From Caballeronia sp. TF1N1 (lineage in GTDB: Bacteria; Pseudomonadota; Gammaproteobacteria; Burkholderiales; Burkholderiaceae): DNA of 64,000 nucleotides. The translations under genes were made by a program, and so were the position numbers. Under the pieces are notes generated by a model, which did not search any database, was not told the DNA's origin, and was given only the letters and a program-made list of their open reading frames with translations. Of the stretch, positions 5,926 through 64,000 are shown piece by piece. The DNA is taken from NCBI RefSeq assembly GCF_022878925.1, contig NZ_CP084626.1:1860001-1924000 (forward strand). The letters run 5' to 3'. Numbering within the stretch: the first letter of the stretch is position 1; every line of letters begins with the position of its first letter.

Positions 5926-6735
5926 ATGATCGACACGAAGTCTTTCAGGCAAGAGGTCGCGCAAAAAGCAGCGGGCGCAGCGCACAACGCGCGCCCGCTG
6001 TTTTTCATTTCCGACCTGCACTTGAGCGAGGCGATTCCGAAGACGGTCGCCGCGTTCGAGCATTTCATCGAAGTCACGGCGAGCGGCGCGGACTCGGTTT
6101 TCATCCTCGGCGACTTGTTCGAATTTTGGGTCGGCGACGATATCCTGGATGACGCCGTCGCCGACGAGCGCGCCCGCTTCGCGCGCCGCATGACGAAGCT
6201 TTTGCATACGCTCACCGAGCGCGGCATCGCGTTATATGTCATGCATGGCAATCGCGACTTTCTGCTCGGCAAGCGCTTCATGAAGGAAGCCGGCGCACTT
6301 CCGTTGCCCGATCCGTTCACCATGACCGCGTTCGGCACGCGCATCGTCCTCGCGCATGGCGACGCGCTCTGCACCGCCGATCCCGGTTATCAGCGCTTTC
6401 GGCGCTTTGCGCGCAATCGGTTCGCACAGCGCGCGTTTCTCGCGTTGCCGCTGAAGACGCGGCTCGGCATCGGGCAGCGCATGCGCACGAACAGCGAGGG
6501 CGCGCGCCTGCAGGGCGAATCGCCGAAATACGACGTGACGCGCAAGGCGGTGTCGGAGCTTTTCATCCGCAGCCGCACGCATACGATGATCCACGGACAT
6601 ACGCATCGTCCGGCGATGCATCGGGAAGTGGAAGGCGCGCGCTGGGTGTTGCCGGATTGGGAACTGGATATGGATGAACCGCGCGGCGGGTATCTGCGGA
6701 TCGACGAGGAAGGGATTCGCGCGCTGCCGTTGTAG
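5926..6735 (+). CDS. lpxH: UDP-2,3-diacylglucosamine diphosphatase
   Basis: Membrane-associated metallophosphoesterase of lipid A synthesis that cleaves UDP-2,3-diacylglucosamine to lipid X and UMP. All motifs of the calcineurin-like fold are present in order: FFISDLHLSE, LGDLFEFWVGDD, MHGNRDFLLG, LAHGDALC and MIHGHTHRP. The FEFWVGDD segment is characteristic of true LpxH. At 269 residues it is slightly longer than usual, with about 20 extra residues at the N-terminus; MIDTKS at 5926 is the only good start. It ends the ppiA-ppiB-lpxH unit. This matters for the second, different metallophosphoesterase at 59820. Confidence 0.96.
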   Translation: MIDTKSFRQEVAQKAAGAAHNARPLFFISDLHLSEAIPKTVAAFEHFIEVTASGADSVFILGDLFEFWVGDDILDDAVADERARFARRMTKLLHTLTERGIALYVMHGNRDFLLGKRFMKEAGALPLPDPFTMTAFGTRIVLAHGDALCTADPGYQRFRRFARNRFAQRAFLALPLKTRLGIGQRMRTNSEGARLQGESPKYDVTRKAVSELFIRSRTHTMIHGHTHRPAMHREVEGARWVLPDWELDMDEPRGGYLRIDEEGIRALPL

Positions 6736-58451: not shown

Positions 58452-59219
58452 GTGAGTTACAAGCGCGGTCTCGCGATTGTCTTTAGTTGCGCGATTGCGA
58501 GTCTGGTCGCATTCGCCGCGACTTATCCGCGCTTTTACCCAGCCACCGCCGCCTTGCTCTCGACCGCCGCCGCGCCCAACGGCGCAAGTTCGGGCGCCGA
58601 TTCCGGCCTTTCGCTGTCGGCGCTCTCTTCCGGCAGTCCGCTCTCGTGGAATCGTCTCACCGAAGCGCAGCACGTCGCGCTCGCGCCGTTCTCCACGCAA
58701 TGGGATTCCTTCAGCGAAGAGCGCAAGCAAAAGTGGCTGAAGATCGCATCGCGCTATCACCGCATGTCGCCCGAGGCGCAAAAGCGTCTGCATCAGCGCA
58801 TGGAGGAATGGACGCGCATGACGCCGGACCAGCGCAAAGTCGCGCGCGAGAACTATCAGGTTTCAAAGTCCGTCGCGCCGGAGAATCGCGAAAAGGCGTG
58901 GGATGCTTACCAGAAGCTTTCCGAAGAGCAGAAGAAAAAGCTCGCCGCCACCGAGCGCACGCGCCGTCCCACGGTCGTTAGCGCGCCGCCGACCGGCAAG
59001 AGCGAAGTGAAGGACATCAACCGGCTCGTGGCCGCGCGCGAGCAAGGCCACGGCGCGGGACATGCCGAAGGCGGCTCCGGTGCGCCGGCTGCATCGCCTT
59101 CTTCCACCTCAACCGCCTCGCCCGCCACGCCCGCGATTCCCAACGCCGCGAGCGTCGTGCCGGCAACGCCGATTCCCGTCTCCCCGCAGCAAGCGCCTTC
59201 CATGTACAACGGCTCATGA
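58452..59219 (+). CDS. DUF3106 protein with LTxxQ-like repeats
   Basis: 255-residue predicted periplasmic protein: an N-terminal signal or anchor (GLAIVFSCAIASLVAFAATYP), then a helical region of repeated W/L/F-x-E/Q motifs (LTEAQHVALAPFSTQWDSF, EERKQKWLKIASRYHRMS, LSEEQKKKLAATERTR) and a Pro/Ala/Ser tail. The repeats recall LTxxQ domains of CpxP/Spy-like periplasmic proteins, but the match is loose. It starts at GTG with GGGGAG before it, and overlaps the RDD gene by 4 bases. Confidence 0.84.
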   Translation: MSYKRGLAIVFSCAIASLVAFAATYPRFYPATAALLSTAAAPNGASSGADSGLSLSALSSGSPLSWNRLTEAQHVALAPFSTQWDSFSEERKQKWLKIASRYHRMSPEAQKRLHQRMEEWTRMTPDQRKVARENYQVSKSVAPENREKAWDAYQKLSEEQKKKLAATERTRRPTVVSAPPTGKSEVKDINRLVAAREQGHGAGHAEGGSGAPAASPSSTSTASPATPAIPNAASVVPATPIPVSPQQAPSMYNGS

Positions 59220-59740
59220 GCGCGTCCGCTTCCACCACCACGCCTCTCTCGCCGCTTTACGCGCCCACGCTGCGCCGCCGGCTCGCGACGATGGTCTACG
59301 AAGGCGTCATTCTGTTCGGCGTGGTGTTCATCTCCGGATATTTGTTCAGCACGCTCACCCAGCAGAAAAACGGCCTTACGCATCACAACTGGCTGATGAC
59401 GTGGATCGGTCTCGTGCTCGCCGCGTATTTCGTGTGGTTCTGGACGCACGGCGGCCAGACGCTGCCAATGAAAACCTGGCGCCTCAAATTGGTCGACGCC
59501 CACGGTGAGCCCGTCACGCCTGGCCGGGCGCTCGCGCGCTATGCGCTCGCGTGGCTGTGGTTCCTGCCGCCGCTCGCGCTGCATCCGCTGCTCGGGCTCG
59601 CCGTGCCGCAGACGCTCGCCGTGTTCGCGGCCTGGATCGCGCTGTGGGCGGCCGCCGTCCGGCTCGATCCGGCGCGGCAGTTTCTGCACGATCGCCTGGC
59701 TGGCACGCGCATCATCACGGCGCCGGCTCCCTACAAGTAA
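59216..59740 (+). CDS. RDD family membrane protein
   Basis: 174-residue membrane protein with about four hydrophobic segments. The family pattern is seen as LRRRLATMVYEGVILFGVVF (the R-D-D position is changed to R-x-x-x-E here), GQTLPMKTWRLKLVDAHGEPVTPGRALARY and the tail LHDRLAGTRIITAP. RDD proteins have no settled function; some are thought to move ions or small molecules. ATG overlaps the DUF3106 stop. Confidence 0.87.
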   Translation: MSASASTTTPLSPLYAPTLRRRLATMVYEGVILFGVVFISGYLFSTLTQQKNGLTHHNWLMTWIGLVLAAYFVWFWTHGGQTLPMKTWRLKLVDAHGEPVTPGRALARYALAWLWFLPPLALHPLLGLAVPQTLAVFAAWIALWAAAVRLDPARQFLHDRLAGTRIITAPAPYK

Positions 59741-59756
59741 TAAGAACTTCTCGTGA

Positions 59757-59774
59757 CTGTCACGGCTCGGTCAC
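59757..59774 (+). promoter_or_regulatory. Candidate PhoB box upstream of the PlcP-like gene
   Basis: CTGTCAC-GGCT-CGGTCAC is a direct repeat of two 7-base half-sites with an 11-base period, as in PhoB boxes (CTGTCAY, 4 bases, CTGTCAY). Thirteen of 14 half-site positions match. The spacer is not AT-rich as in E. coli. It ends 45 bases before the start codon of the phosphoesterase gene at 59820; no clear -10 is seen at the expected distance. Confidence 0.55.
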
Positions 59775-59819
59775 GGCCGCATGGCGCAATGCGCATATCG
59801 AAACCCGATACGCGAGCCC

Positions 59820-60746
59820 ATGACCTTCCACTCGACCGTCACGCAGGCAATCGAAGCGTCTTCCGCTTATCGTTTTCGGAGCGCCGACCTGCGCGGCGCG
59901 ACGCATGAAACCGCCCTGCCGCTGCCGGCGAACCCGGGCGTCGACGACGACAGCGAATCCTCCAGTGCGCCTCAACGCTATCGCGCGATCTGGCTGTCGG
60001 ACATCCATTTGGGCTCTGGCGGCTGCCAGGCGCCCTATCTGCTCGATTTTCTGCGCCACAACGAGTCGGAGTATCTGTATCTCGTCGGCGACATCATCGA
60101 TGGCTGGCAACTGAAGAAAGGCTGGTTCTGGCCGCAGGCGCACAACGACGTCATTCAGAAAATCTTGCGCAAGGCGCGCAAGGGCACGCAAGTCGTCTAT
60201 ATCCCCGGCAATCACGACGAAGCCGCGCGCCAGTACTGCGATCTCGCGTTCGGCGACATCCACGTGCGCGGCGAAGCCTTCCATACGACGCTCGCGGGCA
60301 AGCGTCTTTGGATCGTGCACGGCGATCTCTTCGACGGCGTGATCCAGCACGCGAAATGGCTCGCCTATCTCGGCGACACCGCCTACACGATGATCCTGCT
60401 GCTCAACCGCTGGTTCAATCGCGTGCGCACGAAGCTCGGCTTCGACTACTGGTCGCTCTCGCAGTATCTCAAGCATCAGGTCAAAAACGCGGTCAACTTC
60501 ATTTCGCAGTTCGAACGGGTCATGACCGACGAAGCTCGCCGCCGCGGCTGCGATGGCGTGGTGTGCGGGCATATCCACAAGGCCGAGATACGCGATATCG
60601 ACGGCATTCTCTATTGCAACGACGGCGACTGGGTGGAGAGCCTCTCCGCGCTCGTCGAGACCCAAGACGGCGAACTGAAGATCGTCTACTGGACCGTCAT
60701 GCACTCCCCGGAAGCGCAACCGAACCGCGTGCGCGCCACCGTCTGA
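59820..60746 (+). CDS. PlcP-like metallophosphoesterase (candidate phospholipase C)
   Basis: 308-residue calcineurin-like enzyme. Order of motifs: WLSDIHLGSGGCQ, LVGDIIDGWQLKKGWFWPQ, YIPGNHDEAARQY, WIVHGDLFD, and VVCGHIHKAEIRD, with FDYWSLSQYLKHQVKNAVNFI between. Such proteins are often called UDP-2,3-diacylglucosamine diphosphatase, but the window has a true lpxH at 5926 with a different WVGDD motif. The GCQ, KNAVNFI and NDGDWVES features fit the PlcP group that makes diacylglycerol from phospholipids under phosphate limitation. That function is inferred. Confidence 0.82.
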   Translation: MTFHSTVTQAIEASSAYRFRSADLRGATHETALPLPANPGVDDDSESSSAPQRYRAIWLSDIHLGSGGCQAPYLLDFLRHNESEYLYLVGDIIDGWQLKKGWFWPQAHNDVIQKILRKARKGTQVVYIPGNHDEAARQYCDLAFGDIHVRGEAFHTTLAGKRLWIVHGDLFDGVIQHAKWLAYLGDTAYTMILLLNRWFNRVRTKLGFDYWSLSQYLKHQVKNAVNFISQFERVMTDEARRRGCDGVVCGHIHKAEIRDIDGILYCNDGDWVESLSALVETQDGELKIVYWTVMHSPEAQPNRVRATV

Positions 60747-60774
60747 ACCGCATCCTCACCCGAGCCGAAATCCG

Positions 60775-61806
60775 ATGAAAATCATGATCGTCACCGATGC
60801 ATGGGAGCCGCAGGTCAATGGCGTCGTGCGCACGCTTACGCAGACGAGCCGCGAACTCACGGGCCTCGGGCATCGCGTGGAATTGCTCACGCCGCTCGAG
60901 TTCAGAACCATTCCGTGTCCGACTTATCCCGAGATTCGCCTATCATTGATGCCGGGCCGGCACGTGGCGAAGCGTATCGACGAATTCGCGCCGGACGCGC
61001 TGCATATCGCGACCGAAGGCCCGCTCGGCATGTCGGCGCGTGCCTATGCGCTGCGTCACAAACTGCCGTTCACGACCGCTTATCACACGCGTTTTCCCGA
61101 GTACGTGAAAGCGCGCTTCGGTATTCCGCTCGCCATGACTTATCGGTTTCTGCACTGGTTTCATCGGCATTCGCAGGCGGTGATGGCGCCTACTCCGGTC
61201 GTCAAGCACGACCTGGAACAGTACGGCTTCACCAACGTCGTGCTGTGGACGCGTGGCGTCGATCTGGACATCTTTCATCCGATGGACTCGAAGGTGCTCA
61301 ACACCGCGCGGCCCATCTTTCTGTACGTCGGGCGCGTGGCCGTGGAAAAGAACGTGGAAGCGTTTCTGAAGCTCGATCTGCCCGGCTCGAAGTGGGTCGC
61401 GGGCGAAGGACCGGCGCTCGCGGAACTGAAGTCGCGCTATACGAACGTCAACTATCTCGGCGTGCTCTCGCAGACGGAACTGGCGAAGGTCTACGCGGCC
61501 GCCGATGTCTTCGTGTTCCCGAGCCGCACCGATACCTTCGGCCTCGTGCTGCTCGAAGCGATGGCCTGCGGCACACCGGTCGCCGCGTATCCGGTCACCG
61601 GTCCAATCGATGTACTAGGTGAACACGGTCCCGGCGCGCTCCATGAAGATCTGCACGAAGCCTGTCTGCAAGCGCTCAAGATCGAACGCGCCGATGCCCG
61701 CGCGTGGGCCGAGCGCTTCTCGTGGCGCGCGGCCTCCGAGCAGTTCGCCTCGCATTTGCGCCAGGTCGAACCGCGCGCGCCGAGCACCGACCGGGCGGCC
61801 GCATGA
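60775..61806 (+). CDS. GT4-family glycosyltransferase (Agt-like, diacylglycerol glycosylation likely)
   Basis: GT-B fold glycosyltransferase of 343 residues. N-terminal acceptor domain starts with MKIMIVTDAWEPQVNGVVRT, which has the GVVR loop; the C-terminal donor domain has FLYVGRVAVEKNVEAFL and the motif SRTDTFGLVLLEAMACGTPV with the catalytic Glu pair. No signal peptide or transmembrane helix is seen, so it would be a peripheral membrane enzyme. It starts 28 bases after the PlcP-like gene and overlaps dgkA, suggesting a shared role in glycolipid synthesis. Sugar donor and acceptor are not determined. Confidence 0.85.
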   Translation: MKIMIVTDAWEPQVNGVVRTLTQTSRELTGLGHRVELLTPLEFRTIPCPTYPEIRLSLMPGRHVAKRIDEFAPDALHIATEGPLGMSARAYALRHKLPFTTAYHTRFPEYVKARFGIPLAMTYRFLHWFHRHSQAVMAPTPVVKHDLEQYGFTNVVLWTRGVDLDIFHPMDSKVLNTARPIFLYVGRVAVEKNVEAFLKLDLPGSKWVAGEGPALAELKSRYTNVNYLGVLSQTELAKVYAAADVFVFPSRTDTFGLVLLEAMACGTPVAAYPVTGPIDVLGEHGPGALHEDLHEACLQALKIERADARAWAERFSWRAASEQFASHLRQVEPRAPSTDRAAA

Positions 61807-62345
61807 CGCGAAAGAGGCTCGCCGAGCAACGCGCCGAAGCTCACGCCCGTGCGGCGCCTCGTCCGCTCGAGTCCAAGCGCGATGGCGACGTCGAAGCCAA
61901 TGAGGAAAACGAACCGCTAGGTCCCGACGATCCGCTCGCGCCGCTGCCCTTCAACCCGTATAAGGGTAATCGCGGCTTCACGCGCGCCTGGCACGCGATG
62001 AAGAACTCGCTCAACGGTTTTCGCGTCGCCATTCGCGAGGAAAGCGCGTTTCGTCAGGAACTCACGCTCGCCGCGATTCTTCTGCCATGCAGTCTTTTCG
62101 TGCCGGTGGCGCCCGTCGAGCGCGCGGCGCTGATCGCATCCGTGCTGCTCGTGCTGATCGTCGAATTGCTCAATTCGAGCGTGGAAGCGGCTATCGACCG
62201 CATCTCGCTCGAACGTCACGAACTCTCGAAGCGCGCGAAGGATTTCGGCAGCGCGGCCGTGATGGTCGCGCTCGGCGTTTGCCTCATTACGTGGGCGTTG
62301 ATTCTCTGGCCGGTCGTGTCGAATTGGCTCGCTCGTATCCCATAA
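61803..62345 (+). CDS. dgkA: Diacylglycerol kinase
   Basis: Small integral membrane kinase that turns diacylglycerol into phosphatidic acid. 180 residues: a hydrophilic N-terminal extension of about 55 residues not in the E. coli protein, then three membrane helices. The active-site block is VELLNSSVEAAIDRISLERHELSKRAKDFGSAAV. ATG overlaps the stop of the glycosyltransferase gene by 4 bases, so they are coupled. Confidence 0.92.
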   Translation: MTRKRLAEQRAEAHARAAPRPLESKRDGDVEANEENEPLGPDDPLAPLPFNPYKGNRGFTRAWHAMKNSLNGFRVAIREESAFRQELTLAAILLPCSLFVPVAPVERAALIASVLLVLIVELLNSSVEAAIDRISLERHELSKRAKDFGSAAVMVALGVCLITWALILWPVVSNWLARIP

Positions 62346-62394
62346 AAGATGAATGTCACCTGAAACGCAGCACTGTCGCGCCGAACGACCGGTT

Positions 62395-62400
62395 TATAAT
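62395..62400 (+). promoter_or_regulatory. Probable -10 box of the TetR gene
   Basis: A perfect TATAAT lies 91 bases before the TetR start codon. The -35 region is weak. Confidence 0.4.
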
Positions 62401-62491
62401 CGTCCGACATTCTCAAAAATAGCAACGGAAACCGGTCGCGCGAACGTTTTGGAGTTTCGAGCGCCGCCACCGGAAGCCAAGGTCGGACGAC

Positions 62492-63232
62492 ATGGAAGCC
62501 AAACCTCCCCGCCGTACCCGCGAACGGATTCTCGAGCTGTCGCTGAAGTTGTTCAACGATATCGGCGAGCCGAACGTCACTACCACGACGATCGCCGAGG
62601 AAATGGAAATTAGTCCAGGTAATCTGTACTACCATTTCCGGAACAAAGACGACATCATCAACAGCATCTTCGCGCAATTCGAGCAGCAGATTCAGAAGCG
62701 CCTGAAGTTCCCGGACGATCATCGTCCGACCATAGATGAAATGTGGTCGTACTTACAGTACATGGCCGATTTCCTGTGGGCGTATCGCTTTCTCTATCGC
62801 GATCTGAACGATCTGCTCGCGCGCAATCGCACGCTCGAAACGCACTTCAAGCAGATCATCACGCACAAGGTGCGCTTTGCCAGCCAGCTATGCGAAGCGC
62901 TCGTCGCCGATCAGGAAATGGTCGCGACGCCCGCGGAGATCGAGGTCATCGCGACCAATATGGGCGTGATCTCGACCTACTGGCTTTCGTATCAGTACGT
63001 GATGAACCCGCGCAAGTACAACGATCAGGAAGCGATCCGCACGGAGTTGCACCAGGCGAGTCTGCATATCATTTCGATCATGGCGCCGTATCTTCGCGGA
63101 CGATCGCGCCAGCTCTTCGACGACCTCGTGTCCGGTAAACTGCCGAAGCGCCAGTACGCCGACTTCCTGCCGCCGCGCGAGGAAGCGCCGCCGGGTGCGC
63201 CGAAGAACGTAACACCGAAGGATTCCCGATAA
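62492..63232 (+). CDS. TetR family transcriptional regulator
   Basis: 246-residue regulator. The N-terminal helix-turn-helix is RRTRERILELSLKLFNDIGEPNVTTTTIAEEMEISPGNLYYHFRNKDDI (the family pattern, shown here with its natural gaps), and the C-terminal helical ligand domain has no known partner. Its target is not evident; the following LOG and SDR genes or the preceding lipid genes are candidates. Its stop codon overlaps the start of the LOG gene by one base. Confidence 0.92.
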   Translation: MEAKPPRRTRERILELSLKLFNDIGEPNVTTTTIAEEMEISPGNLYYHFRNKDDIINSIFAQFEQQIQKRLKFPDDHRPTIDEMWSYLQYMADFLWAYRFLYRDLNDLLARNRTLETHFKQIITHKVRFASQLCEALVADQEMVATPAEIEVIATNMGVISTYWLSYQYVMNPRKYNDQEAIRTELHQASLHIISIMAPYLRGRSRQLFDDLVSGKLPKRQYADFLPPREEAPPGAPKNVTPKDSR

Positions 63233-63816
63233 TGAAGGCTGTTTGTGTCTATTGCGGCTCCGCGAGCGGAGCCCGCCCTGTATATGCCGAAGCGGCCAAG
63301 GCGTTCGGCCGCGCGCTCGTCGAGGCCAACCTTTCGCTCGTGTATGGCGGCGGCCGCGTCGGTTTGATGGGCCTGATCGCCGATGAAGTGCTCGCCGCCG
63401 GCGGACGCGCAATCGGCGTCATTCCAGAGTTGCTGCTTGCGAAGGAAGTGGGCCATACGGACCTCACGGAACTGATCGTCGTGCCCGACATGCACGAGCG
63501 CAAGAAGCGCATGGCCGATCTCGCGGACGCGTTCGTCGCGATGCCCGGTGGTGTCGGCACTTTCGAGGAATTTTTCGAAGTGTTCACGTGGGCGCAGCTT
63601 GGTTATCATCAGAAGCCTGTTGGCCTGCTGGACGTGAACGGCTATTACGACCCGCTCATGGCCATGTTGCGCCATACCGTCGACGAAGGCTTCATGCGCG
63701 AGCAGTATCTAGAGCTCATACAGATTGCGCGCGAGCCCGGCGAGATGATCACGAAGCTGCAGCACTACACGCCGCGCACGCTCGACAAGTGGAACGAAAA
63801 GCGCGACGCGGTTTGA
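63232..63816 (+). CDS. LOG family protein (cytokinin riboside 5'-monophosphate phosphoribohydrolase type)
   Basis: 194-residue Rossmann-like protein of the LOG/TIGR00730 family. The binding motif is LVYGGGRVGLMGLIAD and the catalytic motif is PGGVGTFEEFFEVFTW (PGGxGTxxE). Members hydrolyse nucleoside monophosphates to free bases and ribose 5-phosphate, although bacterial roles are mostly unclear. It overlaps the preceding TetR stop (TAATG) and sits 22 bases before the SDR gene. Confidence 0.92.
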   Translation: MKAVCVYCGSASGARPVYAEAAKAFGRALVEANLSLVYGGGRVGLMGLIADEVLAAGGRAIGVIPELLLAKEVGHTDLTELIVVPDMHERKKRMADLADAFVAMPGGVGTFEEFFEVFTWAQLGYHQKPVGLLDVNGYYDPLMAMLRHTVDEGFMREQYLELIQIAREPGEMITKLQHYTPRTLDKWNEKRDAV

Positions 63817-63838
63817 TCCATCCCTAACGGTCGACACG

Positions 63839-64000
63839 ATGTCCAAAGTCATCCTGATTACGGGCGCGAGCCGCGGCATCGGCCGCTCGGCAGCGCTGCT
63901 CGCGGGCGCGCGCGGCTGGTCGGTCGGCGTGAACTATGCGAATAACGCCAGTGCCGCCGATGAAACCGTCGCCGCGGTGCAAGCCGCTGGCGGCAAGGCG
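63839..64000 (+). CDS. Short-chain dehydrogenase/reductase (partial)
   Basis: Start of a Rossmann-fold oxidoreductase that runs off the window. The first 54 residues contain MSKVILITGASRGIGRSAAL, where TGASRGIG is the SDR nucleotide-binding motif. Substrate cannot be inferred from this piece. Confidence 0.9.
   Translation, partial: MSKVILITGASRGIGRSAALLAGARGWSVGVNYANNASAADETVAAVQAAGGKA

Follow-up and report, generated by a model that had tools for sequence, protein, structure and literature searches.

The plcP-agt-dgkA genes of Caballeronia sp. TF1N1 probably constitute a PhoB-controlled operon for the remodelling of membrane lipids under phosphate shortage. They are located in a 64,000-nucleotide stretch of the 7.07 Mb genome (contig 1, positions 1860001-1924000), hereafter called the window, and encode a predicted intracellular phospholipase C (PlcP), a predicted diacylglycerol glycosyltransferase of the GT4 family and a prokaryotic diacylglycerol kinase (Table 1). 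The families of these enzymes, the conserved order of their genes and the conservation of a direct repeat resembling a Pho box upstream of plcP were established by computation.

In the model proposed here, PhoB would bind the repeat at 59757 when phosphate is low and the three genes would be cotranscribed, as suggested by the motif, conservation, spacing and the four-base overlap between the last two genes. Judging from its relatedness to characterised PlcPs, the first enzyme would cleave phospholipids such as phosphatidylethanolamine (PE) or phosphatidylglycerol (PG) into a phospho-headgroup and diacylglycerol. The glycosyltransferase, from its own relatedness to known enzymes, would add a sugar to diacylglycerol and yield a phosphorus-free glycolipid; this sugar would most likely be glucose from UDP-glucose, which is a guess. 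The recurrent linkage of dgkA with plcP suggests that the kinase would convert non-glycosylated diacylglycerol into phosphatidic acid, a step that would prevent the build-up of diacylglycerol and feed phospholipid synthesis once phosphate returns. We favour this role of a valve limiting diacylglycerol and allowing a quick return to phospholipids.

Table 1. Features of the plcP-agt-dgkA region and of the separate lpxH gene (coordinates in the window)
Feature	Coordinates	Strand	Evidence and remarks
Pho-box-like direct repeat CTGTCACGGCTCGGTCAC	59757..59774	+	45 nt 5' of the plcP start codon; 11/14 consensus positions
plcP, predicted intracellular phospholipase C, calcineurin-like phosphoesterase superfamily, 308 aa	59820..60746	+	PF00149, identity, tree, motifs
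agt, predicted GT4 diacylglycerol glycosyltransferase, Agt1 type, 343 aa	60775..61806	+	Pfam GT4 domains, identity, tree
dgkA, prokaryotic diacylglycerol kinase, N-terminal extension, 180 aa	61803..62345	+	PF01219
lpxH proper, outside the operon	5926..6735	+	FEFWVGDD and GNRDF motifs, 40.6% identity to E. coli LpxH, LpxH group in tree

The phospholipase and glycosyltransferase genes

An earlier note on this DNA, made from the letters and their open reading frames (ORFs), had described the three genes as a metallophosphoesterase, a GT4 glycosyltransferase and dgkA, the last two overlapping by four bases. The ORF list confirms all three at their positions, as well as the overlap, in which the agt stop and the dgkA start share ATGA (61803-61806). 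The assignment of the first gene to a PlcP-like enzyme, also made in that note, is borne out by identities, tree and motifs. The protein matches Metallophos (PF00149) of Pfam at 42.0 bits, above the cut-off. It is 52.9% identical to the PlcP of Pseudomonas aeruginosa and 50.0% identical to the PlcP of Sinorhizobium meliloti, and hence closer to each of them than they are to one another (46.6%).

The reference PlcP proteins were obtained from a protein search of plasmid records. The S. meliloti reference, judged by its neighbourhood, is taken to be the plcP of the sinI/sinR-plcP region, and the P. aeruginosa reference, followed by a GT4 gene and then by an adenylate/guanylate cyclase gene, is presumably that of PA3219-PA3218-cyaB. 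The plcP-agt1 segment, part of the chromosome in the published strain, is found on three plasmid records of P. aeruginosa (L087, hits H18-H20). The region of the acyl-homoserine lactone (AHL) synthase, LuxR and plcP genes, a chromosomal region of S. meliloti, stands in a record of 3.7 Mb with the title pSymB (L086, CP090106.1), which may be mislabelled. An identity of 46% has been printed for PA3219 and S. meliloti PlcP (PMC8528852), and its agreement with the computed 46.6% supports the recognition of both references.

The earlier note had proposed a phylogeny with characterised PlcP and LpxH proteins, and its outcome favours PlcP. The maximum-likelihood tree took 57 of the 90 collected sequences, its bootstrap not quite settled and some of its long branches flagged, and splits nine LpxHs from the other 48 proteins, including that of the window, at 100/100. 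The betaproteobacterial PlcP sequences, again with that of the window, form a group of 20 rows at 100/97. The metal-site motifs SDIH, GDIIDG, GNHDE, HGD and GHIH of the window protein align with those of the reference PlcPs. GNHD is present in all 81 PlcP-like sequences and GNHDE together with GHIH in 71, GHIH being absent from three of the most distant; the nine LpxHs examined all have GNRDF and GHTH. A phmmer comparison of the window protein with solved structures returned no match. By its sequence the first gene is therefore of the PlcP type and not an LpxH, and phospholipase C activity on PE, phosphatidylcholine or PG can be predicted.

The second protein matches Glyco_transf_4 (86.4 bits) and Glycos_transf_1 (75.9 bits) of Pfam, both above cut-off. 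It shares 50.8% identity with P. aeruginosa Agt1 and 30.5% with Agt2, the reference for the latter being presumably the right gene, as recognised from its position beside plcR. A quick tree of 40 GT4 proteins, calculated without bootstrap and leaving out rows outside 250-479 aa, places the window protein together with Agt1 of P. aeruginosa in a 25-row group (SH-aLRT 99), apart from a five-row Agt2-type group (SH-aLRT 99) and from the other GT4 proteins of this genome, the best of which matches at 35% over residues 166-334 only. Compared with solved structures using phmmer, the protein matched general glycosyltransferases only. It groups with Agt1 and is predicted to be a glycosyl-diacylglycerol synthase. 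Since identity to characterised enzymes reaches at least 50% for both proteins, the family assignment of plcP and agt may be considered settled.

Gene order was examined in an even sample of 120 genomes of the order with at least 90% completeness, in which plcP was called at E<=1e-40 and the GT4 gene at E<=1e-60; the resulting linkage table omits four incomplete rows, from the genomes G375, G370 and G361, all three of them without plcP. In this sample plcP is present in 58 genomes and a strong GT4 homologue in 33, all 33 of which have plcP. The two matches are at most 175 nt apart in 30 of these 33 genomes, 29 times on the same strand and once divergently. In the three unpaired genomes the genes are located on different contigs (G404) or far apart on one contig (G059 and G405). 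This order is far beyond chance. The GT4 gene also adjoins plcP in all of the 80 best named relatives, which are the best 80 of 586 loci and mostly close relatives, the best-scoring being Caballeronia species. A metagenome-assembled genome (MAG) record titled Klebsiella pneumoniae (L276) carries a plcP-agt pair as well; its title is probably wrong.

A few loci show how the region varies. In L042 and L043 (G013 and G002) the RDD gene and plcP are separated by additional DNA, of about 3.7 and 1.5 kb respectively, yet plcP, agt and dgkA remain joined, which marks the left edge of the operon. The plcP gene is in three pieces in G018, a congeneric genome of 3.9 Mb whose RDD and TetR genes are also broken, and in two pieces in G015; either gene loss or sequencing error could account for these broken genes.

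A conserved Pho-box-like repeat upstream of plcP

The repeat starts at 59757, which is the exact start coordinate of the earlier note, whose text omits it. Compared with the Pho consensus CTGTCATNNNNCTGTCAT, as given in PMC8528852, CTGTCACGGCTCGGTCAC matches at 11 of the 14 defined positions. Among 23 loci of the genus, that of the window included, 22 have a best upstream site scoring at least 11, and only L025, whose second half-site is gone, falls short. Over 26 loci, again with the window, the 20 columns of the box region hold on average 1.57 bits of information each, versus 1.11 and 1.21 bits in the flanks; in this alignment the register of one row (L061) is shifted at the box, and conservation is also high in part of the flank.

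In each named locus, 350 nt surrounding and preceding the aligned plcP core were searched for the Pho core GTCAY-N6-GTCAY. It is found 5' of plcP in 55 of the 80, versus 8 of 2325 control windows taken from these loci; the 55 are not independent events, because the loci are related. Nearly all Burkholderia, Paraburkholderia, Caballeronia and Trinickia loci carry it (45/46), as do five of the seven Cupriavidus loci. Elsewhere in the same genome, pstS is preceded by GTCACGGTACTGTCAC, which has the same core and lies 64 nt before the start, and the OlsB-family gene by an array of imperfect half-sites. For Burkholderia sensu lato, predicted Pho boxes upstream of olsB have been reported in 21 of 43 genomes (PMC7814305). 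Applied to the named references, a shuffle test gave p=0.045 for P. aeruginosa plcP, 0.11 for S. meliloti, 0.005 for Mitsuaria and 0.97 for Roseomonas. A plasmid of Mitsuaria sp. 7 (L088) has a plcP without GT4 gene, beside genes for a polyphosphate kinase and a Ppx/GppA phosphatase, with a strong Pho-like site upstream. Phosphate control of the operon through the repeat at 59757 is a prediction, and the case for a Pho box rests on conservation, as matches to the bare pattern are not uncommon across the genome.

Of the other signals sought around the cluster, an Rfam scan of 59000-63900 gave no match above threshold. Terminator-like sites in 59100-62600 number 5, versus 2.2 in shuffles, and were not used as evidence.

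The diacylglycerol kinase and the alternative readings

The third protein covers positions 2-102 of the 102 of DAGK_prokar (PF01219) at 111.5 bits, the cut-off being 22.3. The match begins at residue 68, which leaves some 60 residues as an N-terminal extension, of seemingly variable length among relatives. In 67 of the 80 best named relatives, dgkA is found 3' of agt on the same strand. This includes all loci of Caballeronia (8), Paraburkholderia (22), Burkholderia (14), Trinickia (2), Pandoraea (2), Cupriavidus (7) and Ralstonia (2), two of the four Polynucleobacter loci and several MAGs, one of them Rhodocyclaceae. Four of the 13 named loci without dgkA have fewer than 900 bases left 3' of plcP.

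Both genes, plcP and dgkA, occur in 50 of the 120 genomes of the even sample. They are at most 4 kb apart in 12 of these, which represent seven families and include the window's genome. For a genome of some 4 Mb, the probability of such proximity by chance is roughly estimated at 0.2-0.3%. Eight of the 12 have the order plcP-agt-dgkA on one strand (families f1, f91, f106 and f110), and one (f87) has dgkA on the opposite strand. The remaining three (f15 and f21) are devoid of an Agt1-type GT4 and combine dgkA and plcP with a further GT4 and with an Agt2-type enzyme that shares 49-51% identity with Agt2 of P. aeruginosa; two of these three have a second dgkA elsewhere. A distinct cluster composed of plcP, a further GT4 gene forming a separate clade, dgkA and a GT4 gene of the Agt2 type was observed in three loci (L165, L166 and L167, of G412, G417 and G378). 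In L166 and L167 the Agt2-type gene directly abuts dgkA or shares one base with it.

A tree of 32 DgkA rows was built from 13 linked copies, that of the window and 18 of the 19 unlinked copies fetched, many more of which exist. The linked copies fall in several places, with six changes of label, at least three of them forced by starred branches. A single origin of the linked kinases is not supported by this tree. The linkage of dgkA with plcP looks recurrent, which argues for a function of the kinase with PlcP-derived diacylglycerol without proving it, and suggests a unit acting at the diacylglycerol branch point, where the lipid would be either glycosylated or re-phosphorylated.

Several observations weigh against a phosphate-controlled remodelling operon. 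The strict core is missing 5' of plcP in the named loci of Ralstonia (0/2), Pandoraea (0/2), Polynucleobacter (0/4) and Thiobacillus (0/4). For loci from other genera, the best site outperforms shuffles (p<0.05) in only 8 of 35; the combined p over these 35 is 9e-8 for rows that are not independent, and none of the five f18 loci reaches 0.05. Genome-wide, the strict Pho-like pattern has 3 matches versus 2 for a reversed control, and 247 versus 137 with up to three mismatches, so that significance by pattern alone was not reached. A scan of 59100-62600 for sigma-70 sites found none (shuffle mean 0.7). Re-phosphorylation of diacylglycerol consumes phosphate, which is odd under starvation. In Paraburkholderia xenovorans at low phosphate, ornithine lipids and not glycolipids were stated to replace PE, as data not shown (PMC7814305), and the passages on this experiment mention no glycolipid. 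Finally, dgkA is unlinked to plcP in 38 of the 50 genomes having both.

This last count also fits an alternative in which PlcP and Agt remodel lipids while dgkA is a housekeeping kinase, acting on diacylglycerol from the modification of periplasmic glucans or lipopolysaccharide, that merely shares their operon. The gene is the sole PF01219 match of the genome and must therefore cover any housekeeping need, and the plcP-agt1 pair of P. aeruginosa has no adjoining dgkA. Against this stand the recurrence of the linkage across seven families and with two types of glycosyltransferase, the two genomes that have another dgkA besides the linked copy, and the scatter of linked copies through the DgkA tree. 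We regard this alternative as possible and somewhat doubtful. The odds seem about even for the more ambitious proposal that betaproteobacterial lipid remodelling has a third dedicated part, a Pho-controlled diacylglycerol kinase that would have been recruited to the plcP cluster several times independently, paired with Agt1 or Agt2, and would serve as a valve setting the conversion and permitting a quick return to phospholipids.

The GT4 enzyme could use another sugar or acceptor, for instance glucuronic acid or a phospholipid, in which case its product would not be monoglucosyl-diacylglycerol (MGDG). Donors vary among GT4 enzymes, and the Agt of Agrobacterium tumefaciens and of SAR11 make both MGDG and glucuronic acid diacylglycerol (GADG) (PMC4796936); the top-scoring NCBIfam match of the window protein is moreover an N-acetylglucosaminyl phosphatidylglycerol synthase, at 92.8 bits for a cut-off of 480. 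The protein groups with P. aeruginosa Agt1, apart from Agt2, and Agt1 made MGDG and accepted UDP-glucose only (PMC8528852), so that another product appears unlikely.

That plcP would be a second LpxH acting in lipid A synthesis, as conveyed by the shared superfamily and general fold family, by the label UDP-2,3-diacylglucosamine diphosphatase in 24 of 31 plasmid records with a homologue (the other seven being without annotation) and by weak NCBIfam LpxH matches (35.5 and 32.1 bits), is hardly credible and is rejected by model scores far under the cut-offs of 134 and 190, by GNHDE where LpxHs have GNRDF, by an identity to E. coli LpxH of 25% over 120 residues only, and by the separate clades of the tree. 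The genuine lpxH recognised in the earlier note from its FEFWVGDD signature is upheld by motif, identity and its position inside the LpxHs of the tree; because it is present in the same window, lipid A synthesis can proceed without plcP, and the first enzyme is, as that note had argued, unlikely to be needed for it.

Relation to known systems and significance

The operon of PlcP and Agt is of an already known kind, and its Pho-boxed form bearing dgkA is the variant. A review (PMC3972451) describes the founding member, PlcP of S. meliloti. The pathway was demonstrated beyond alphaproteobacteria in P. aeruginosa by mutants and enzyme assays (PMC8528852), and it is likewise established in Phaeobacter, SAR11 and Methylosinus (PMC8528852, PMC4796936, PMC9239053). 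The plcP-agt1 pair of P. aeruginosa (PA3219-PA3218) encodes the same two enzymes in the same order as the window, at the identities given above, and a Pho box has been reported upstream of it (PMC8528852). Unlike the window, P. aeruginosa has no dgkA beside the pair, and its second enzyme, Agt2 (agt2, PA0842), is encoded elsewhere. In marine isolates, SAR11 and Methylosinus, plcP likewise adjoins an agt-type GT4 gene and Pho boxes were reported (PMC4796936, PMC9239053). These clusters differ from the window in that neither a diacylglycerol kinase nor the word 'kinase' itself occurs in PMC4796936; PMC9239053 was not searched for the term. The words 'Betaproteobacteria' and 'Burkholderia' do not occur in the main texts of either article.

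The earlier note had stated that plcP lies next to a GT4 gene in alphaproteobacteria such as S. meliloti. This holds for Sphingomonas and Roseomonas but not for S. meliloti, where the neighbours of plcP in the record examined are genes for an AHL synthase, a LuxR regulator and a major facilitator superfamily (MFS) transporter, with no GT4 gene or dgkA among the features shown, in contrast to the window. Its larger proposal of a phosphate-starvation lipid remodelling cassette has gained from the Pho box, the phylogeny and the synteny, which considerably strengthen the case for such a predicted function, and the idea of a betaproteobacterial version with its own kinase finds support in the recurrent linkage of dgkA to plcP and in the grouping of the GT4 protein with Agt1.

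A literature search on plcP in Burkholderia, betaproteobacteria and Ralstonia, and on MGDG in Burkholderia, found the operon named nowhere; most subscription papers were not covered, and it may therefore have been published. In the literature retrieved on dgkA, plcP and phosphate, dgkA appears only within a list of lipid genes.

The operon predicts that Caballeronia, Paraburkholderia, Burkholderia, Trinickia and Cupriavidus would exchange phospholipids for glycolipids; the same exchange is predicted, on weaker regulatory evidence, for Pandoraea, Ralstonia and Polynucleobacter. The predicted glycolipids would come in addition to ornithine lipids, which are known from part of this group. The pathway is hidden because annotated homologues of plcP, in the plasmid records examined, bear the name of a lipid A enzyme. 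The enzymes themselves are ordinary members of known families, and the noteworthy part is the repeated addition of a diacylglycerol kinase. Its recurrent linkage makes testable a neglected question, namely how diacylglycerol is controlled in cells that cut their own membrane lipids.

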